Below, piece after piece: positions 34,842 through 55,178 of a stretch of 55,890 nt of DNA (the stretch's first letter is position 1; the number at the start of each line of letters is the position of its first letter). The notes below the pieces were generated by a model. It had not been told where the DNA came from. It saw nothing but the letters and a program-made list of their open reading frames with translations, and did not search any database. Source of the stretch: a virus; IMG/VR virus record IMGVR_UViG_3300009507_000022, positions 1 through 55,890 of that record; one strand, 5' to 3'. Both the position numbers and the translations under genes were made by a program.

Positions 34842-36677
34842 TTAAATTTCTTCGTGAGGAATATCTTCCGTTTGAGTTTGACCTGTATTCTGATAAAGTC
34901 TTGTAGTTATATCATTCCACACGGTCTCTAATTTAGAATGACTTTCTTTAATCTTCTCATAATCTTTCGTTTCGATTATAGAACTCAAATCAGACATCAT
35001 AGAATTCAATGCGTTCTTGTCATCCTCTGTAAGAGACTCAAGGGTCTTCATTTGTTTTTCAACTTCAAACATATAAGATTGTGCATTGTTTAAAATCTCA
35101 ATCTCCTCTTTACGTTTTAAATCAGCTTCCCTATTAACTTCAGCATCATCTCGCATCTTCTTTATTTGTTCATCCGACAATCCAGTTCCAGATGTAATAC
35201 GAATGGCTTGTTCTTTTTGAGTTCCTAAATCTTTAGCTGAAACATTTATAATACCATTTGCATCAATATCAAAAGTTACTTCAATTTGAGGAATACCTTT
35301 TGGTGCTAACGGAATATCAACCAGCTTAAACCTACCAAGGGTTCTATTGTCTCGTGCCATTGGTCTCTCACCTTGAAGAACATGGACATCCAACATAGTT
35401 TGATTATCAGCCACGGTTGAAAATGTTTGTGATTTTTTAACAGGAATGGTTGTATTGGAATCGATGATAGGTGTAAAGATTCCACCCATAGTTTCGATAC
35501 CCAAACTTAATGGAGTAACATCCAGAAGTAAAACATCAGTAACATCACCACCAAGTACACCACCTTGAATAGCAGCACCAACAGCCACTACTTCATCTGG
35601 ATTTACACCTTTGCTTGGTTTTTTTCCAAAGAACTTTTCAACAGCATCTTGAACTGCCGGAATACGAGTAGAACCACCAACGAGGATTACTTCATTAATT
35701 TCTGCTTTTGAAATTAAAGCATCTTCAATTGCTTTCTTACACGGAATCATACACCTATCAATCAACCCCGAAGATAGTCGTTCAAATTCAGAACGAGACA
35801 TGGTTTCCTCAAAGTGAATAGGGCCAGCCTCTGATACGGAGATGTATGGTAAGTTAATATTAGTTGATGCAGCAGAAGATAACTCAACCTTTGTTTTTTC
35901 TGCGGCTTCACGAACACGTTGTAATGCCATTGAGTCTTTGGTAATATCAATACCCTTTGATTTTTTAATCTTATCACAAACCCAATCGACAATTATTTCA
36001 TCAAAGTTATCACCACCAAGTTGAGTATCACCATTGGTAGACAACACTTCAAATACACCATCACCTAATTCAAGGATTGAAATATCAAAAGTACCACCAC
36101 CCAAATCAAAAACAGCAATTCGCATGTCGGTGTCTTTTTTATCAAGTCCATACGCAAGAGCAGCAGCGGTAGGTTCGTTGATGATACGAAGAACATCCAA
36201 CCCAGCAATTTTACCAGCCTCCTTCGTAGCTTGTCTTTGAGAATCATTAAAATATGCAGGAACCGTAATTACTGCTTTTGTAACTGATTCACCCAAATAA
36301 TCTTCAGCCGATTTACGAATGTTTTGTAAAACCATAGCTGAAATTTCTTGGGGTACATATTCTTTACCATTAGCGGTAATAATAACTGAATCACCACTAC
36401 CTTTGGATACCTTATAAGATACATTTAAATGGTCGGAGTTTAATTCAGAATACCTTTGACCAATAAATCGTTTTACCGAATATAATGTGTTTTCAGGATT
36501 AGTTACTGCAACTCGTTTAGCCGCAGCCCCTACTTTAATCTCACCTTTATCAAATGAAACTATGGATGGGGTAGTTCGAGTTCCCTCGGAATTTACAATG
36601 ACAACTGGGTCACCACCTTCGATAACGGAAATACACGAATTGGTCGTACCCAAGTCTATTCCAATAATTTTTGACAT
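34842..36677 (-). CDS. dnaK: Phage-encoded Hsp70 chaperone DnaK
   Basis: A 611-aa protein, nearly full DnaK length. The ATPase domain has [20 protein letters not shown] at the N-terminus, [20 protein letters not shown] near 193, [14 protein letters not shown] and [14 protein letters not shown] near 330. The linker [15 protein letters not shown] and substrate domain ([20 protein letters not shown]) are intact. The C-terminus ends EDIPHEEI rather than the usual EEVD-like acidic end. No DnaJ or GrpE is present, so it must use host co-chaperones. The RBS aaagaggtatt is strong. It sits in a chaperone pair with Hsp20 upstream, separated by a terminator. Confidence 0.96.
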
Positions 36678-39954: not shown

Positions 39955-39959
39955 CTTGA

Positions 39960-39990
39960 CAAATATACAAAATTAATTTTAAATATCCAA
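39960..39990 (-). promoter_or_regulatory. Bacteroidota-type promoter
   Basis: The minus strand reads TTG (39990-39988), a 20-nt spacer ending aattttg, then TATATTTG (39967-39960). The predicted start is near 39955, next to the ATG at 39954. It lies just after and partly inside the end of the 137-aa gene. Confidence 0.7.
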
Positions 39991-44133: not shown

Positions 44134-44154
44134 AATGTTAACTATTTGTTAAAT
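44134..44154 (-). repeat. 21-nt AT-rich repeat at gene end (copy 3)
   Basis: Plus-strand aatgttaactatttgttaaat, overlapping the stop of the thioesterase gene. It matches copy 1 at 18 of 21 positions. Confidence 0.7.
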
Positions 44155-44528
44155 TTTAATCTAACTCTATCCGAAATTGGTATCGGGTCTCCATTCTCAT
44201 CGATACGAACGAACTTAATATTAGTAGATAAGATAACCGATTGTACGCCAGAGTATACATTATGTGCTCTTGCTTCAAGATATAATGTAAGGGATGTGTT
44301 ACCAACCTCTTTTACATCACCATATATTTTAAGGAGTTGACCTTCTTTAGCAGGTCTTTTAAATAGACACTCATCAATCTTGATGGTGACCATACGGGGT
44401 GTATCAGCAACTTCCATGGCGAGTGCAGCACCCGCAGCATCCAACCAAGCAAGTAGCTTACCACCAAATAGATTAGCATGGAATCCTAAATCGGATTTCT
44501 TAATAGGATGTGTACTGATTAACTGCAT
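44142..44528 (-). CDS. Hotdog-fold acyl-CoA thioesterase-like protein
   Basis: A 128-aa protein, the right size for a single-hotdog thioesterase. HANLFGGKLLAWLDAAGAAL near residues 17-36 is the hotdog helix with the FGG and catalytic Asp seen in YciA/BACH-type acyl-CoA thioesterases; IDECLFKRPAKEGQLLKIYG and SLTLYLEARAHNVYSG are later strands. It would hydrolyse acyl-CoA, perhaps altering host lipid flux, but phage context gives no direct evidence. It lies 1 nt after the 95-aa gene in the tRNA-Gly transcript. Confidence 0.85.
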   Translation of the reverse strand: MQLISTHPIKKSDLGFHANLFGGKLLAWLDAAGAALAMEVADTPRMVTIKIDECLFKRPAKEGQLLKIYGDVKEVGNTSLTLYLEARAHNVYSGVQSVILSTNIKFVRIDENGDPIPISDRVRLKFNK

Positions 44529-44817: not shown

Positions 44818-44827
44818 TGATACCTTG

Positions 44828-44900
44828 AGCGAAAGACCGGGTTCGAACCGGCGACCCTAACCTTGGCAAGGTTATGCTCTACCAACTGAGCTACTTTCGC
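44828..44900 (-). tRNA. tRNA-Gly (anticodon GCC)
   Basis: A full cloverleaf on the minus strand: acceptor GCGAAAG/CTTTCGC, D-stem GCTC/GAGC, anticodon loop TTGCCAA, T-loop TTCGAAC, discriminator T. CCA is not encoded. It is the last RNA of an array with three non-standard RNA units. Confidence 0.97.
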
Positions 44901-44907
44901 TTATAGA

Positions 44908-44978
44908 GCGGAGAGGTGGCTCTGCCCCACCATCTTTGTACTGGACGTACAACGAGTTTCTCTTAACTCCTCCCCCGC
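44908..44978 (-). ncRNA. tRNA-like cloverleaf unit C (non-canonical)
   Basis: A 71-nt minus-strand unit folding exactly as a tRNA: acceptor GCGGGGG/TCTCCGC (7 bp, two G-U), 2-nt joint, D-stem GAGT/ACTC, 1 nt, anticodon-like stem TTGTA/TACAA with loop CGTCCAG, 4-nt variable region, T-stem GGTGG/CCACC with loop GGCAGAG, then T at the discriminator position. It lacks G18-G19, U33 and the TTC of the T-loop. All four stems show compensatory changes relative to unit A. The glycine identity bases (GCGG/CCGC, T73 and C35-C36 of a TCC triplet) are kept. It is read from the promoter at 45156. Not a standard tRNA; a non-ribosomal glycyl-RNA or a decoy is a hypothesis. Confidence 0.75.
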
Positions 44979-44984
44979 ATTGTT

Positions 44985-45070
44985 GGGTAGTAATAACCGG
45001 TAGCCCATACTTTAGGCAAGGCCTTTAGCAATTGATGTAGCGGTTTTATCCACACCTTTAATTACTACCC
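44985..45070 (-). ncRNA. Structured RNA unit B between the cloverleaf units
   Basis: An 86-nt minus-strand segment closed by a perfect 10-bp stem GGGTAGTAAT/ATTACTACCC. Inside, GGTGTGG/CTACATC forms a 7-bp hairpin (two G-U) whose loop carries AACCG, able to pair with CGGTT next to the closing stem, giving a pseudoknot; AGGC/GCCT can form a small third hairpin. It is separated from unit A by 4 nt and from unit C by 6 nt. No T-arm can be drawn, so it is not a tRNA. Function unknown. Confidence 0.65.
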
Positions 45071-45074
45071 TTGA

Positions 45075-45145
45075 GCGGAAGGTTGGAACTGCCCCAACAC
45101 CTTTTATCTGGATGATAAACGACTTTCTTTTAAGTCTTCTTCCGC
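45075..45145 (-). ncRNA. tRNA-like cloverleaf unit A (non-canonical)
   Basis: A 71-nt minus-strand unit: acceptor GCGGAAG/CTTCCGC, D-stem GACT/AGTC, anticodon-like stem TTTAT/ATAAA with loop CATCCAG, variable AGGT, T-stem GTTGG/CCAAC with loop GGCAGTT, then T. Same length, same stems and nearly the same loops as unit C. The first base is about 5 nt from the predicted transcription start, so the RNA may begin almost exactly at its acceptor stem. Confidence 0.75.
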
Positions 45146-45155
45146 GTTTGTTATA

Positions 45156-45186
45156 CAAATATACAAAATTAATTTTAAATATCAAA
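45156..45186 (-). promoter_or_regulatory. Full-match Bacteroidota-type promoter for the RNA array
   Basis: The minus strand reads TTTG (45186-45183), a 19-nt spacer ending aattttg, then TATATTTG (45163-45156). It drives units A, B, C, tRNA-Gly and probably the two genes beyond. Confidence 0.85.
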
Positions 45187-46156
45187 ATAAAAATTGATAA
45201 TCATCTATATTTGTTGAAATTTGTAATCTAATCCAATCAGAGTTGTAATCACCAGGTATGGTACAATTGGCTCGAAACTCAATATTAGATGGTAAATCAA
45301 TTGTAGTATTACTTCTAATGTGTACCCAATTACAATGGCCATCATAAATTTCATAACCATGTTGAACCAACATATCCATTAATTGTCGTTTGGTTTGAGT
45401 TACACCATCGATATATTTATACACACTCTCTTTATTATTAATTAAAGTTTGTATCCATTTAACACCAAGTCCACTAATCTCGTACATATCTTTATACACC
45501 ATTAGGTTCTCAATGTTTTTATTTTGTGAAATAATTACACCAACCCTAACTCCAGCAGACCCCCATGCTTTTGACATAGAACGAATAACAAATAAGTTGG
45601 GGAATCTTTCAGTTAATTGAACTACACTTTCAGTTTTACTAAATTCAATATATGCCTCATCAACTAAAGTAGGTACACCACAATGTAAAATCTTTAGTAG
45701 GTCACCACGAGAAATGGTATCACCAATTGGTGATGATGGATTTGATAATACAACAACACTATTTTTCTCTATGTTGTGGATTGTATTCTTAACATCAAAC
45801 TTACCAAGCTGATATGGTACACTAATAACACTCATACCCATCATATTAGCATATACATTATACATACCAAAACATGGGTCTGAAAGTATAACCTCTTTAT
45901 CAGAGTGGAGTTCAAAGAAATATTTAATACATCTATCACTACCTGCACCAATCATTAAATCAGTTCCACTTGGTATATTATAAAACTCCTTTAGTTGTGG
46001 TCTAACCTCCTCAACATTTGGATAATACCTAACATCAGTATCTCGCAGTGAATCAATAAACGACTGCCATATATTATTCTCCCACATATCGTTACGCTCG
46101 GCTGAGTGTAGTCGGAGTTTATCGTGTGGTATGATTGGGTTATTCTTTCGTTTCAT
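45182..46156 (-). CDS. PLP-dependent aminotransferase, HisC-like
   Basis: A 324-aa protein of the fold-type I aminotransferase class, close to histidinol-phosphate aminotransferase (and CobD) in layout. Key points: LMIGAGSDRCIKYFFELHSD near 75, VVVLSNPSSPIGDTISRG near 150, TLVDEAYIEFSK near 180 (Asp and Tyr that hold PLP), and RSMSKAWGSAGVRVGVIIS near 207 with the Schiff-base lysine. Histidine synthesis genes are otherwise absent, so it probably acts on another amino-phosphate or keto substrate. It overlaps the PhyH-like gene by 17 nt, suggesting a shared pathway, and lies between tRNA genes, a common place for acquired genes. Confidence 0.87.
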   Translation of the reverse strand: MKRKNNPIIPHDKLRLHSAERNDMWENNIWQSFIDSLRDTDVRYYPNVEEVRPQLKEFYNIPSGTDLMIGAGSDRCIKYFFELHSDKEVILSDPCFGMYNVYANMMGMSVISVPYQLGKFDVKNTIHNIEKNSVVVLSNPSSPIGDTISRGDLLKILHCGVPTLVDEAYIEFSKTESVVQLTERFPNLFVIRSMSKAWGSAGVRVGVIISQNKNIENLMVYKDMYEISGLGVKWIQTLINNKESVYKYIDGVTQTKRQLMDMLVQHGYEIYDGHCNWVHIRSNTTIDLPSNIEFRANCTIPGDYNSDWIRLQISTNIDDYQFLF

Positions 46157-46961
46157 CTTTTTTAAAATCTTTATATGGGTTTGTGGATTCTAATTTATTG
46201 ATGATTTTCTTCATCTCACTAATAACAAACTCCCTACGATGTGTAGTAGCACGTTCAAAAACATCTTGGTCTTTTTCTTTTGTATTCAATCTAACTTGTA
46301 ATACAATCCCTTTACGATGGTGACTTGTATAGTTAGCGGATGACCCATGCACCATCAGATGATTGAAAAATAAAATATCACCAGCCTTCATAGTTACTGT
46401 CTTAATACCATAGGTATCATTTAGATACTGAAGTGTTTTTGTAGTTAATCTTCGTTTGTGTCCAAGGTTATCTCCAATGATATCTTGATGTTCTAACAAT
46501 CCAAACTTATCAGAGCCAGGAATAATCTTTAAACACCCATTATCAATTGTATGGTCATCCAATGCAATGTAAATTTGCATAAAGTTTTCGTGGTCATCGA
46601 CTGTATAGCCAGGAGCATATGTATCGATATTAGACATCTCTTGATGCCACTCAACGGCACTACCAAAGAACGCTCCCTTATTATTTACAATGAGATGGTT
46701 AAAGGTGTAGTTATCACTCCTAAATAAAGTAGTACAAAAGTTTTGTATATACTCGTTTTTAGGAACTAAACTAAACACCTTATCATCCACCAAGTTCCCG
46801 TAGCCCCAAGGAACATCACTATATGGAATGTACAATTTAGGTTCAATAGTTGAGAGTTGTAATTTAAGGGCACGGATAAAATCCTCACCAAGAATTCCTT
46901 CTGCGAAGTAGTACCCATCTTCTCTATATTTCTCTATAACATTTTCCATATCATAAAACAT
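46140..46961 (-). CDS. PhyH-like Fe(II)/2-oxoglutarate dioxygenase
   Basis: About 273 aa from the ATG at 46961 (MFYDMENVIEKYREDGYYFA); a longer TTG-started frame would enter tRNA-Thr and is rejected. The N-terminus YREDGYYFAEGILGEDFIRA is typical of phytanoyl-CoA dioxygenase-like enzymes. Metal site: EWHQEMSNIDTYAPGYT near 125 (His, with Glu where most members have Asp two residues on) and MVHGSSANYTSHHRKGIV near 225 (distal His and the 2-oxoglutarate Arg). Substrate unknown. It is coupled to the HisC-like gene, so a hydroxylated amino-phosphonate or sugar product is possible. Confidence 0.83.
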   Translation of the reverse strand: MFYDMENVIEKYREDGYYFAEGILGEDFIRALKLQLSTIEPKLYIPYSDVPWGYGNLVDDKVFSLVPKNEYIQNFCTTLFRSDNYTFNHLIVNNKGAFFGSAVEWHQEMSNIDTYAPGYTVDDHENFMQIYIALDDHTIDNGCLKIIPGSDKFGLLEHQDIIGDNLGHKRRLTTKTLQYLNDTYGIKTVTMKAGDILFFNHLMVHGSSANYTSHHRKGIVLQVRLNTKEKDQDVFERATTHRREFVISEMKKIINKLESTNPYKDFKKDETKE

Positions 46962-46973
46962 CTGACTGCGTTG

Positions 46974-47047
46974 AGCCTCCAGTTGGATTCGAACCAACGA
47001 CCCCGAGATTACAAATCACGTGCTCTGGCCAGCTGAGCTATGGAGGC
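46974..47047 (-). tRNA. tRNA-Thr (anticodon TGT)
   Basis: Minus-strand cloverleaf: acceptor GCCTCCA/TGGAGGC, D-stem GCTC/GAGC, anticodon loop TTTGTAA, T-loop TTCGAAT. One T-T mismatch in the anticodon stem. Discriminator T, no encoded CCA. Confidence 0.93.
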
Positions 47048-47054
47048 TTTTAGA

Positions 47055-47172
47055 CCCAATCACCTCACTATCTGCAGGTGCAAGAGAATGTCGAGCTAAT
47101 TGCATATACATTCTAATTGAGTCATCGGTAGTTGATTGGGGTTCTACTACCAAAACCCATAGGCTAGACTCA
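47055..47172 (-). ncRNA. Candidate structured RNA between tRNA-Thr and tRNA-Ser
   Basis: In this tRNA-flanked gap five complementary pairs occur (plus-strand coordinates): cccaatca 47055-47062 with tgattggg 47133-47140; cacct 47061 with aggtg 47076; agaatgt 47085-47091 with acattct 47108-47114; tgagtc 47118-47123 with gactca 47167-47172; ggtagt 47127-47132 with actacc 47146-47151. The 8-bp pair uses the loop of the last hairpin, a pseudoknot. A single copy only, so no covariation support. Confidence 0.45.
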
Positions 47173-47201
47173 GCGTCTTTCCTACCTTGACAGGGCAGTT
47201 G

Positions 47202-47286
47202 CGGAGAGTCAGGGATTCGAACCCCGGGTACCTTGCGGTACGCTGGTTTTCAAGACCAGTGCATTCGACCACTCTGCCAACTCTCC
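47202..47286 (-). tRNA. tRNA-Ser (anticodon TGA)
   Basis: Minus-strand class II tRNA: acceptor GGAGAGT/ACTCTCC, anticodon loop CTTGAAA in stem CTGGT/ACCAG, long variable arm GTACCGCAAGGTAC, T-loop TTCGAAT, discriminator G. Confidence 0.96.
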
Positions 47287-47292
47287 GTACGG

Positions 47293-47553
47293 TTATCCTT
47301 TCAACAATTGCTTACTATCCAACTCATCAAACCCACCATACTCTTCACCGAAGTTATCACGAAGGGTTGATAATTTATCAGTAGCATTGGTCAGTTGGTC
47401 TACCAATGTATCAAGTTCTTCAGTATGTTGGGGGTGTTCTCCAATAGCAACTGGTGATTCGAAGTAAATAGAAATTCTGGCTCTTGCGTCCATAATCTCT
47501 GCCGTGTATTTTGCTTCCAATGCTTGGAATAATCTACGAGAAATCTTACTCAT
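47293..47553 (-). CDS. Conserved small phage protein
   Basis: An 86-aa protein starting [20 protein letters not shown], with [20 protein letters not shown] and [20 protein letters not shown]. The phrase npvGIGEHpqh is one I remember from a small helical protein present in many marine T4-like phages, with unknown function. It lies between tRNA-Ser and tRNA-Glu. Confidence 0.8.
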
Positions 47554-47574
47554 AACTTTTGTTTTTAATTCTAA

Positions 47575-47584
47575 TATAAATATG
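47575..47584 (-). promoter_or_regulatory. CATATTTATA motif, candidate late promoter
   Basis: The minus strand reads CATATTTATA, third exact copy, 21 nt before the ATG at 47553. It is followed by a TATATTAG box (47578-47571) overlapping it, so the site could also act as a weak TAnnTTTG-class promoter. Confidence 0.4.
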
Positions 47585-47607
47585 TTTCACAACATTAATA
47601 AACATAG

Positions 47608-47679
47608 TAGCCCGTAGGGGAATCGAACCCCTCTTTCATCCGTGAAAGGGATGCGTCCTAACCGATAGACCAACGGGCC
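47608..47679 (-). tRNA. tRNA-Glu (anticodon TTC)
   Basis: Minus-strand cloverleaf: acceptor GGCCCGT/ACGGGCT (terminal G-U), D-stem GGTC/GGAC, anticodon loop CTTTCAC in stem CATCC/GGATG, T-loop TTCGATT, discriminator A. Confidence 0.95.
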
Positions 47680-47686
47680 ATTTGCG

Positions 47687-47759
<73 letters not shown>

Positions 47760-47849
47760 AACTGGTTGTTTTAGGACAACCATAACCTGCCTACTTTAGC
47801 TCCACCCGATTTTTTACAAGAATGGGAAACTTGAGGTACACGCCTGGGG

Positions 47850-47932
47850 TGGGGGTAGCTGGACTCGAACCAACGAACTCTATACGAGGAGGGAGTTACA
47901 GTCCCTTGCAATTGCCGCTATGCGATACCCCC
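47850..47932 (-). tRNA. tRNA-Tyr (anticodon GTA)
   Basis: Minus-strand class II tRNA: acceptor GGGGGTA/TACCCCC, anticodon loop CTGTAAC in stem AGGGA/TCCCT, extra arm, T-loop TTCGAGT, discriminator A. The 90 nt between it and tRNA-Pro hold a 6-bp hairpin (ggttgt/acaacc) and no gene. Confidence 0.95.
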
Positions 47933-47942
47933 AATTTATTTG

Positions 47943-48014
47943 TACCCCCTCAAGGATTCGAACCTCGATTCGCTGAACCAAAATCAGATGTCCTGCCAAT
48001 TAGACGAAAGGGGT
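47943..48014 (-). tRNA. tRNA-Gln (anticodon TTG)
   Basis: Minus-strand cloverleaf: acceptor ACCCCTT/AGGGGGT, anticodon loop TTTTGGT, T-stem CGAGG/CCTTG with loop TTCGAAT, discriminator A. Confidence 0.95.
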
Positions 48015-48020
48015 AAATGG

Positions 48021-48094
48021 TACACCCAACAGGAGTCGAACCTGTAACCTACGCATTAGAAGTGCGTTGCTCTATCCAATTGAGCTATGGGTGC
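48021..48094 (-). tRNA. tRNA-Arg (anticodon TCT)
   Basis: Minus-strand cloverleaf: acceptor GCACCCA/TGGGTGT, anticodon loop CTTCTAA in stem ACGCA/TGCGT, T-loop TTCGACT, discriminator A. It decodes AGA, a frequent codon in AT-rich phages. Confidence 0.96.
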
Positions 48095-48118
48095 TCGTTA
48101 ATAAGTTAAAGAACTTTG

Positions 48119-48204
48119 TACCAAAGGTGGGAATCGAACCCACACGGACATTACTGTCCAAGGGATTTTAAGTCCCTCGTGTCTACCTATTCCACCACTT
48201 CGGC
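48119..48204 (-). tRNA. tRNA-Leu (anticodon TAA)
   Basis: Minus-strand class II tRNA: acceptor GCCGAAG/CTTTGGT, anticodon loop CTTAAAA in stem AGGGA/TCCCT, variable arm GGACAGTAATGTCC, T-loop TTCGATT, discriminator A. First tRNA of the main cluster. Confidence 0.95.
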
Positions 48205-48217
48205 GTTTTTGGTGATA

Positions 48218-48249
48218 CAAGTATACGAAATAAAATTCACACCACCAAA
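48218..48249 (-). promoter_or_regulatory. Bacteroidota-type promoter for the tRNA cluster
   Basis: The minus strand reads TTTG (48249-48246), a 20-nt spacer ending ttatttcg, then TATACTTG (48225-48218), one base off. Predicted start about 9 nt before tRNA-Leu. Confidence 0.7.
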
Positions 48250-48567
48250 TCAGTATTTAGATATTTGTTCTTTTACTTTCTGAATTAATTCGTTGTCGGT
48301 CAGGTATGGAATCAACTCCTCCAACAACGACTTCATAAAATCTTTTGATTTCTTCTTTGAGATTTGTTGATTGGTATGTTCCACTTGATATAAGTGATAT
48401 GCAATTTCATCAACCGATTTCAACTTGTTGTAGTATTTGCTCAATCTCTGGTCTATCTTACGACTACGACCAATATCAGTAATAGTTGGAAACGCTTTGT
48501 GTAGTTCATCAATACGACCCTTGAGGTATTGAATCTCTAATAGTTTGTGTAGTTCTTTTTCGTTCAT
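48250..48567 (-). CDS. Unknown helical protein
   Basis: A 105-aa protein starting MNEKELHKLLEIQYLKGRID. Charged helices throughout (RKIDQRLSKYYNKLKSVDEI, TDNELIQKVKEQISKY), no catalytic motif or membrane segment. It shares ATGA with the three-domain enzyme upstream, so it is translated with it. Confidence 0.65.
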   Translation of the reverse strand: MNEKELHKLLEIQYLKGRIDELHKAFPTITDIGRSRKIDQRLSKYYNKLKSVDEIAYHLYQVEHTNQQISKKKSKDFMKSLLEELIPYLTDNELIQKVKEQISKY

Positions 48568-50390
48568 AACAATTCTTTTGATAGTTCAAAATAATGAGAA
48601 CACTTATCATTATCGTGTAGTGGTATTAGACTAAACAACAATGATGCGGTTATCAATTTAATATTAGTTAACTCTTCCATACTAAACTTACTTTCAAAAT
48701 ATTTTTTGATTCTTTGTCTGTATGATTCAACCACATACTTGTCTGATAAGATTTCATCATATCCACAAAGTGATTGATATATTTTTGCGTAATCGTAATA
48801 GGGGTCACCATAAATTCCAAACTCACTATACTTAACATCAATGAATTTGATATTACTTGTTGAAGTAAAGATGATATTTGTAAATACACAATCTCCGTGA
48901 TATGTAGATAATTCAAATCCATGCTTCAAATATAAGTCTAATCCATTTCGTATTTTAGAATAAACAACATCGGCATTATCAAATTTTGAATAATCATATT
49001 GTTTGTACCTATTATCTATTTTTTGTTGATAGTCAATATACGAATTATTTTTTGAATGCACAACTTTATTAGAGTGTAATCGGTCAATAGATTCCAATAA
49101 TAAGTCAATATGCCGTTCAGTCAATATGTTGTTAATAAACAATTCACTAAATGTAGTACCTTCAATCTTTTCCATCTCAAGATAGCCCTCACCATACGAT
49201 ATTAATTTAGGAAACAAATCCGATAACGAGGTCTCGTGGATGTCGCTGTAATATTTAGATTCACCTGATAGTTTAGAATCTTGTGAGTATTTTATAACGG
49301 AATTTTCCGATACTACTATCTTATTAAAACTTCGTGGCTTGATATCATCTAAATAAAATCCAAGTTGTTTTGATAAATCCATTTTAGGATTTATGCATAG
49401 GTCATCTATATAATGGTGCGCATATGGTTTACCAAATACTAACTCATCGTATGGAATGTTAAACTTATCCAACGTGTCCATAGTAATCTTACCAATGTCT
49501 GCGACCACACCACCCACATTACCATTATGGGTTCTCATCCTACGAGCGGTATATACTATGATATGATGGCCAGCTTCTTTTAACTTTCTTAAATAAGTAA
49601 TGGTATCTTGTATTGGCTCTACACTTGTATAGTCACCAGATACTCTTGGGTAGGTAACGAGAGTGTTGTCCAAGTCAAAAACAAATCGTTGAGGTTCTAC
49701 TTTGTAGTTCTTACTAAACTCAACAATATGTTGCGGTGTACCCAGTACATAGAAGTTGGATACACACATACCTCTAAACTCACAACCACCATCAATCATC
49801 GATTTAATTACATCAGAAGTATACACCTCACCTTGAGTGTAATCCATATTGAGTAAGTAACGATGTAATTCTTTTACCGACCAAAAGACATAACAACCAC
49901 TATTTGCATTGTCCGAAATCTTTTCCTTTTCTTTTATTTGGGTGATTACATTATCAGTACCTAACTTGATGTATGAATAGATTGGCTTGGGGTCGGTACT
50001 ATTAAAGTACATAACACCATTATCTACAAGCCGTGCTTTACTTAATACATCTTCATCATAGAATGTATCACCATCCAATACTACCAACTTATCATCTTCT
50101 TTAAAGAAGTGTTCGATGGCAAGCCGAATGGTTTCGGCAGCACCACGGGTGTTGGGTACTGACTTTGTTTTGATGTGTGGATACTTGGACTGAATGATGT
50201 TCCCAAGATTATGTTTATCCAACGATTCATTATAAGTGATGTACAACTCATCATCCTCGGCAAGTTTTAGATTGTCAATAACCCAAAACAAAAGAGGTTT
50301 ACCCAATACCTTTATGAGAGGTTTGGGTGTAGTATAGTTGGCATCGCTAAATCGTTTACCAACCCCACCAAGTGGAATTAGTATTTTCAT
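48564..50390 (-). CDS. Three-domain nucleotidyltransferase - HAD phosphatase - choline-kinase-like protein
   Basis: A 608-aa protein. Residues 1-228 are a nucleotidyltransferase: IPLGGVGKRFSDANYTTPKP (GxGxRF and PKPL) and VVLDGDTFYDEDV, as in RmlA/LicC enzymes. Residues 235-335 are a HAD phosphatase of the capsule-synthesis type: FVFDLDNTLVTYPR (motif I DxDNT at 239-243), IIVYTARRMRTH (motif II), KPYAHHYIDD (motifs III-IV). Residues 365-608 resemble choline-kinase/APH proteins: YLEMEKIEGTTFSELF, STYHGDCVFTNIIFTST (HGDxxxxN catalytic loop) and IKFIDVKYSEFG (second Asp). Together the domains could make and attach an activated alcohol-phosphate to a glycan or lipid. Substrate unknown. Confidence 0.88.
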   Translation of the reverse strand: MKILIPLGGVGKRFSDANYTTPKPLIKVLGKPLLFWVIDNLKLAEDDELYITYNESLDKHNLGNIIQSKYPHIKTKSVPNTRGAAETIRLAIEHFFKEDDKLVVLDGDTFYDEDVLSKARLVDNGVMYFNSTDPKPIYSYIKLGTDNVITQIKEKEKISDNANSGCYVFWSVKELHRYLLNMDYTQGEVYTSDVIKSMIDGGCEFRGMCVSNFYVLGTPQHIVEFSKNYKVEPQRFVFDLDNTLVTYPRVSGDYTSVEPIQDTITYLRKLKEAGHHIIVYTARRMRTHNGNVGGVVADIGKITMDTLDKFNIPYDELVFGKPYAHHYIDDLCINPKMDLSKQLGFYLDDIKPRSFNKIVVSENSVIKYSQDSKLSGESKYYSDIHETSLSDLFPKLISYGEGYLEMEKIEGTTFSELFINNILTERHIDLLLESIDRLHSNKVVHSKNNSYIDYQQKIDNRYKQYDYSKFDNADVVYSKIRNGLDLYLKHGFELSTYHGDCVFTNIIFTSTSNIKFIDVKYSEFGIYGDPYYDYAKIYQSLCGYDEILSDKYVVESYRQRIKKYFESKFSMEELTNIKLITASLLFSLIPLHDNDKCSHYFELSKELL

Positions 50391-50873: not shown

Positions 50874-50893
50874 ATTTCTTATTTCTTATAATA

Positions 50894-50924
50894 CAAATAT
50901 ACGAAATTATTTTGTATTATCAAA
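50894..50924 (-). promoter_or_regulatory. Full-match Bacteroidota-type promoter
   Basis: The minus strand reads TTTG (50924-50921), a 19-nt spacer ending aatttcg, then TATATTTG (50901-50894). The leader to the ATG at 50873 is about 16 nt. It overlaps the stop codon of the methyltransferase. Confidence 0.85.
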
Positions 50925-54968: not shown

Positions 54969-54988
54969 AACAATATTGTTTTAGAAAT

Positions 54989-55020
54989 ACAATATACAAA
55001 ATTATTTTGACATTTCCAAA
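54989..55020 (-). promoter_or_regulatory. Weak Bacteroidota-type promoter
   Basis: The minus strand reads TTTG (55020-55017), a 20-nt spacer ending aattttg, then TATATTGT (54996-54989). It has the same spacer ending as the strong sites but a shortened -7 box. Confidence 0.45.
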
Positions 55021-55178
55021 TTATGTTGTCGAAATCCGATAACTTGAGTCGGGCCCGCTACAACCAGTCTTCGTTGTTCAATAGCCACCTTGGTCATCTC
55101 TAATGTTTCTACATCAGTCTCTGCACCTAACCATTCAAAGAACCATTTGGTCAGTAGTTTCTTTTTTAACTTGTTCAT
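55002..55178 (-). CDS. Small unknown protein (58 aa)
   Basis: ATG at 55178: MNKLKKKLLTKWFFEWLGAE, then TDVETLEMTKVAIEQRRLVV and a basic end, 58 aa. The first half resembles an amphipathic helix. It follows the 20-nt segment shared with the gene at 54258, which contains the start codon and leader. Its 3' end overlaps the weak promoter. No family recognised. Confidence 0.6.
   Translation of the reverse strand: MNKLKKKLLTKWFFEWLGAETDVETLEMTKVAIEQRRLVVAGPTQVIGFRQHNLEMSK

Follow-up and report, generated by a model that had tools for sequence, protein, structure and literature searches.

What use could a phage have for RNAs that fold as tRNAs, carry the identity of glycine tRNAs and appear unable to decode? 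The question is raised by two minus-strand RNAs in a phage fragment of 55,890 nt (the window, by which we mean the whole stretch analysed). Unit A (45075..45145, 71 nt) has the anticodon loop CATCCAG, the T-loop GGCAGTT and U73, and scores 92.0 bits with the covariance model R1. The second copy, unit C (44908..44978, 71 nt), has the anticodon loop CGTCCAG, the T-loop GGCAGAG and U73, and scores 87.5 bits.

Two cloverleaf RNAs in a phage tRNA region

The minus-strand sequence of unit A (45145-45075) is GCGGAAG AA GACT TAAAAGAA AGTC G TTTAT CATCCAG ATAAA AGGT GTTGG GGCAGTT CCAAC CTTCCGC T, and that of unit C (44978-44908) is GCGGGGG AG GAGT TAAGAGAA ACTC G TTGTA CGTCCAG TACAA AGAT GGTGG GGCAGAG CCACC TCTCCGC T. 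The initial annotation had placed two 71-nt minus-strand cloverleaves at exactly these positions, and this is right: all 21 of 21 pairs are standard in each unit, in the 7-4-5-5 bp arms of the RF00005 cloverleaf. The z-scores of the minimum free energy are -3.9 for A and -3.1 for C, and none of the dinucleotide shuffles folds equally well. In the real window, three places have this geometry with 21/21 pairs, every one on the minus strand; 60 mononucleotide-shuffled versions of the window have none. No standard tRNA model gives the units a high score, as both are missed by ARAGORN and by Rfam (at the gathering threshold and also at E up to 10), while the same searches do detect an ordinary decoding tRNA-Gly(GCC) directly after unit C (44827..44900, minus strand).

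The main tRNA array (46973..48204, minus strand), comprised of eight genes (Thr, Ser, Glu, Pro, Tyr, Gln, Arg, and Leu), lies upstream of unit A. A promoter-like site of the Bacteroidota type, TTTG-N19-TATATTTG (45156..45186, minus strand), ends 10 nt before unit A, and several relatives have a similar upstream sequence. This pattern is found at 6 sites in the window, compared to 2.0 expected. Elements resembling the site, which deviate at 3 of 19 bases, are located at 50906-50888 and ahead of the tRNA-Leu gene of the main array (48230-48212). An element around TTTTGTATATTTGTATAAC is repeated at 39959-39990, 48212-48230, 50888-50924, 54987-55021, and 45150-45186, and probably represents a family of promoters of a phage with a Bacteroidota host.

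Between A and C lies unit B (44986..45072, minus strand), a separate conserved structured RNA with a covarying 10-bp closing stem P1 (GGGTAGTAAT/ATTACTACCC) and the core ATAARRCCG ... ACCGGYTAT. The first part of the core forms the loop of the P2 hairpin, to which ACCGGYTAT could pair back as a pseudoknot. No Rfam match to unit B was found at E up to 10. At least seven further phages (L011, L012, L021, L027, L028, L034, and L040) have the element beside their tRNA-like copies or between them.

The window aligns collinearly with positions 1-54,000 of G019, a phage of 166,988 bp in which two such RNAs are located at 44.3-44.5 kb. Genes for a thioesterase (4HBT), an aminotransferase, a PhyH dioxygenase, and a nucleotidyltransferase are inserted in the tRNA region of the window (44142-44528, 45182-46997, and 48564-50390), which looks like a cargo hotspot. 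The aminotransferase adjoins unit A, and we rejected it as a partner of the RNAs, since all four of these genes are missing from G019 and the RNAs are kept there. A full-length gene for a DnaK-like chaperone (34842-36677), for which several matching records are annotated as DnaK, has no match in G019 either, and was not useful as a marker to find relatives.

An RNA family absent from Rfam

Units A and C belong to a family absent from Rfam. The first pattern used to collect it was limited to the three loops, with all acceptor bases free, and matched 32 viral contigs, nearly all of the matches being perfect cloverleaves, often in pairs; the second left all anticodon bases free and added a second RNA group. 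The family includes 63 distinct copies, of which 48 are stand-alone, from more than 50 viral contigs and from prophage-like loci of Planctomycetota. An alignment of 62 copies (58 distinct rows) has 71 columns and no gaps. In it, 98.9% of the cloverleaf cells are paired, compared to 75.6% with shuffled partners and at most ∼50% when the structure is slid, and there are 281 two-sided, compensatory changes compared to 84 in shuffles. Thus, what had been noted for two copies, namely stems changing in a compensatory way and loops staying constant, holds across the family, and the stems are kept in the additional homologues.

Several searches delimit the family. Unit A yielded only chance matches by BLAST against cultured phages, and a strict pattern had no matches; looser patterns succeeded. 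A tRNA-like pattern with the NTCCAG loop had no match among 84,980 genomes of bacteria and archaea, and hence this form appears restricted to phages. Several weak matches to R1 were rejected as family members, being ordinary tRNA-Gly(UCC) with the loop CTTCCAA.

One could suspect decaying or misread, functionless tRNA-Gly genes, as the sequences of the units lie beyond the range covered by standard tRNA models. However, this is contradicted by the strong covariation, and also by the conservation of the RNA block, which is 93% identical between the window and G019, while the flanks are mostly at 65-84%, so that the block is more conserved than the surrounding genes. We give decay practically no credence, and regard A and C as real conserved RNAs with near certainty.

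The loops of the family are not those of decoding tRNAs. Position 33 is A in unit A and G in unit C, hence U33 is absent; the D-loop is YAARAGAR and the T-loop is GGCAGNN, with neither G18-G19 nor UUC, as the initial annotation had observed for the two units. In addition, RNAalifold extends the family cloverleaf by the covarying pairs 14-21 and 32-38, the latter being C-G in 60, U-A in one, and U-G in one of the aligned copies. As a result, the D stem has 5 bp and a 6-nt loop, while the anticodon stem has 6 bp and a 5-nt loop, N-N-C-C-A. The loops had thus been correctly called abnormal, although they are shorter than had been stated. Normal decoding had been considered unlikely, and this assessment is reinforced by the covarying 32-38 pair, which leaves a 5-nt loop, and by the freedom of position 33; judging by its sequence, such an anticodon loop cannot decode normally. 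Among stand-alone copies, all four bases (A, T, C, or G) occur at position 33, and T or A at position 34.

The identity elements behave in the opposite way. The determinants of bacterial glycyl-tRNA synthetase (GlyRS) are G1-C72, C2-G71, G3-C70, U73, C35, and C36 (PMC9976931). The complete set, reported initially for A and C, is invariant in the 63 distinct copies, as is A37, and pairs 1-72, 2-71, and 3-70 are the only ones in the acceptor stem that never vary. This set was never required as a whole by one search, as the loop pattern fixed no acceptor base and the second pattern no anticodon base. The family thus has the full sequence set expected of a bacterial GlyRS substrate, and we consider it very probable, from sequence, that these RNAs accept glycine and do not decode.

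Two further observations concern the ends and possible relatives of such RNAs. Copies of the second group (L110, L113, L116, L118, L160, and L161) have two types of 3' end, with TTTT or similar in place of CCA in some and TCCA in others. A Mom-bearing contig carries an odd cloverleaf (L251:2686-2755) with the T-loop GTCGGTA, the anticodon loop TTGTGGA and the acceptor GTGTTTG/CTTACAC; it may be a tRNA for another amino acid whose arms are altered in a similar way.

Association of the RNAs with Mom

The RNAs travel with Mom (PF25680, PHROG 1384, and PDB 8bv8), a GNAT enzyme of the phage Mu type, which places a glycinamide group on adenine N6. Mom (PF25680) is present in 10 of the 11 RNA-bearing contigs longer than 110 kb, usually as two Moms for two RNAs, versus none of 47 background contigs, a 48th having one sub-threshold match. 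The background contigs were chance pattern matches or had been obtained through unrelated genes; G061/L099 was excluded from the background because it carries two Moms and a diverged RNA with the GGCAG T-loop. Fisher tests of the RNA-Mom association yielded p = 2e-7 and 9e-5, which are indicative values only, as the contigs are phylogenetically related and the background contigs are smaller. Only long contigs can show both genes, since the group-1 RNA and Mom are tens of kb apart; in G019, the two Moms are at 109.5-111 kb. There is no Mom in the 55,890-nt window, a phage fragment, and from its collinearity with the Mom-bearing G019 we infer that this phage carries Mom in the missing part.

The copy numbers of RNA and Mom mostly agree. 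Two Moms accompany two RNAs in G003, G011, G017, G019, G024, G054, G120, and G121, and one Mom accompanies one RNA in G059 and in the group with the RNA inside mom (see below). G016 and G041 have two full-length Moms and a short one with two RNAs, and in G007, G010, G037, and G057 there is one RNA for two or three Moms. G023 and G119 carry the RNA without Mom, both being probably fragments. As a separate observation, ARAGORN predicts up to 26 genes in the large Mom phages L275, L276, and L291 (G120, G121, and G070), among them a phage tmRNA.

In the second group, from Planctomycetota-type phages, the RNA lies in frame at the 3' end of mom. The gene encodes ∼255 residues and is identified as Mom by both Pfam and PHROGs, and the RNA codes for the C-terminal tail AGEGSRETRxPPRxExSGQFRxxA, located after the region common to other Moms. 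Despite coding, the pairs covary, with 43 two-sided changes compared to 14 in shuffles. Position 33 is the third base of a Pro codon in most copies, and its freedom in this group may reflect synonymous change. Among GTDB genomes, all four Mom genes found, in Planctomycetota (Phycisphaerae) metagenome-assembled genomes, carry the RNA 642 bases past the mom start; the Planctomycetota copies were reached solely via Mom.

These arrangements bear on what the RNAs may do. Some phage tRNAs are known to evade host nucleases through changes in the anticodon loop, and the altered anticodon loop of the family would suit nuclease-resistant or nuclease-baiting decoys directed against host anticodon nucleases; the RNAs could also be GlyRS sinks. 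Both the decoy and the trap had been proposed initially, but neither explains the tie to Mom genes or the copies within mom of Planctomycetota-type phages, and we consider such roles very unlikely. The position within mom would rather suit an mRNA element for autoregulation, and the translation of Mu mom is controlled through binding of Com to RNA (PMC6483171). The RNAs might then regulate or chaperone Mom, as a sensor of the charged and uncharged states or by a binding that limits the known toxicity of Mom, with no donation of glycine. However, stand-alone copies are located outside the mom mRNA and retain U73 and the acceptor end, and the exact GlyRS set (G1-C72 to G3-C70, C35, C36, and U73) would be needless for a mere regulator, which makes this role quite unlikely as well.

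A further option is that the RNAs are charged with glycine for some other non-ribosomal transfer, to the envelope, a protein or a lipid, and share phages with Mom through a common pool of anti-defence or large-phage genes. Non-proteinogenic glycine tRNAs of staphylococci are generally known to feed peptidoglycan synthesis, and group-1 copies reside in tRNA arrays distant from mom. Still, one RNA group is inside mom, the copy numbers follow Mom, and in the neighbourhoods of the RNAs we saw no other enzyme using aminoacyl-tRNA; we rate this option as unlikely.

The association was also tested in reverse, with contigs chosen by Mom alone and the whole records searched with the covariance model. 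L204 proved to have a full family member (73 bits). The glycine tRNAs of L183, L189, and L192 combine an ordinary T-loop with the loop CGTCCAG, in which position 33 is G, and L199 and L215 have an eight-base loop, CATTCCAG; several of these contigs also contain an ordinary phage tRNA-Gly(UCC), whose loop is CTTCCAA. In the whole viral collection, a pattern for glycine tRNAs with an ordinary T-loop and no U33 matched six contigs, five of them with two Moms: three are the Mom-sampled ones, and the others are two contigs with two Moms each and one 65-kb contig. On the other hand, in G060 and in the G066-G070 lineage, Mom is present and the variant RNA was not detected, these contigs having only ordinary glycine tRNAs or none. 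No such RNA was found in the cultured Mom phages Mu, P12002L, Melnitz, and Y8A, and a search for a hidden cloverleaf in the Mu mom region yielded nothing beyond chance-like 19/21 shapes. Given these exceptions, the RNA predicts Mom, yet Mom does not always need the RNA. Overall, we are fairly confident that the family RNAs are a functional partner of Mom.

Proposed glycine donation to Mom and comparison with known systems

The modelled group-1 Mom (pLDDT 86.8) has Mu Mom (8bv8) as its best fold match in Foldseek, followed by acetyl-CoA GNATs, and was not grouped with Fem-type aminoacyl-tRNA transferases. Invariant residues of Mom include the serine to which the "inactive mutant" in the title of PDB 8bv8 refers. 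The Mu product is alpha-N-(deoxyribosylpurin-6-yl)glycinamide (Swinton, 1983, as cited in PMC3874153). A review gives the Mom donor as an acyl-CoA, e.g., glycyl-CoA (PMC7824862), a donor that had been proposed from the GNAT fold. In the literature covered, which included few subscription papers and no preprints, we found neither an experimental identification of the Mom donor nor a link between Mom, momylation, and glycyl-tRNA; the depositors of 8bv8 could already have reported the donor.

Since the RNA appears loadable and non-decoding and travels with Mom, it is probably the long-unknown supplier of glycine. The host GlyRS should charge A and C, as they keep the full bacterial identity set, and the 5-nt anticodon loop and the missing elbow motifs of the D- and T-loops would keep them off the ribosome. 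The phage Mom, with its GNAT fold, would then take glycine off the charged RNA and place it on adenine N6 of phage DNA, the modification by which phage DNA is protected from restriction. Being unusable by the ribosome, a dedicated RNA would maintain the glycine supply without draining protein synthesis, and the two Mom paralogues would go with the two RNA paralogues in each phage. We thus propose that A and C are probably dedicated, non-decoding glycyl-RNA donors for Mom. A glycine tRNA-like in its charged state carries the atoms needed. The chemistry may proceed via N6-glycyl-dA, in which the amine would attack C6 through a five-membered spiro ring (Smiles type), the nitrogens being swapped to yield N6-carbamoylmethyl-dA, the glycinamide found in Mu. 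The two compounds are isomeric (dA + C2H3NO, dA + 57.021), and we give this rearrangement an even chance. The joint reading is that dedicated glycyl-tRNAs donate to Mom in the first aminoacyl-tRNA-dependent DNA base modification, with a rearranging N6-glycyl intermediate, a tRNA paralogue per Mom paralogue, and the enzyme and its donor sometimes encoded by the same bases; we lean towards it with modest confidence.

The structure of the Mom modification has been known since 1983, and a glycine-specific non-decoding tRNA makes the question of the donor directly testable, pointing to an aminoacyl-tRNA as a donor for DNA modification. The family also explains a class of tRNA-like genes missed by annotation tools and supplies a covariance model to find them; even if the Mom donor has already been reported, a dedicated non-decoding tRNA family is new to Rfam. 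The initial annotation had suggested charged RNAs for another reaction, with staphylococci as a parallel, and this option is now favoured by the evidence; what goes beyond it is the association with Mom, the second group of RNAs, located within mom, and the anticodon loop of 5 nt.

Compared to known systems, the family shares the cloverleaf, the acceptor end and the location in tRNA arrays with tRNAs of RF00005 and phage-encoded tRNA-Gly, but lacks U33, G18-G19, and the TTC T-loop, has a 5-nt anticodon loop and scores below the model threshold. TacT is a GNAT that recognizes glycyl-tRNA via U73 and G71 (PMC9976931). The likeness to TacT-type toxins acting on Gly-tRNA-Gly is in the GNAT fold reading glycyl-tRNA; the difference is that TacT adds an acetyl group to the charged glycine, which Mom is instead proposed to remove. 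The partner enzymes are clear homologues of Mu Mom with identical invariant residues, whereas Mu has no such RNA near mom, and presumably uses another donor or the host tRNA-Gly. Finally, the non-proteinogenic tRNA-Gly of staphylococci are donors for the pentaglycine bridges made by FemXAB. From what is generally known of them, they resemble the family in the retained glycine identity, degraded decoding, a D-loop without G18-G19, and a dedicated non-ribosomal role. By contrast, the family is found not in staphylococci with FemXAB but in uncultured phages and Planctomycetota loci, with Mom as the partner: it is borne by phages and prophages, has a 5-nt anticodon loop and the T-loop GGCAGNN, and is associated with a DNA-modifying GNAT instead of Fem.
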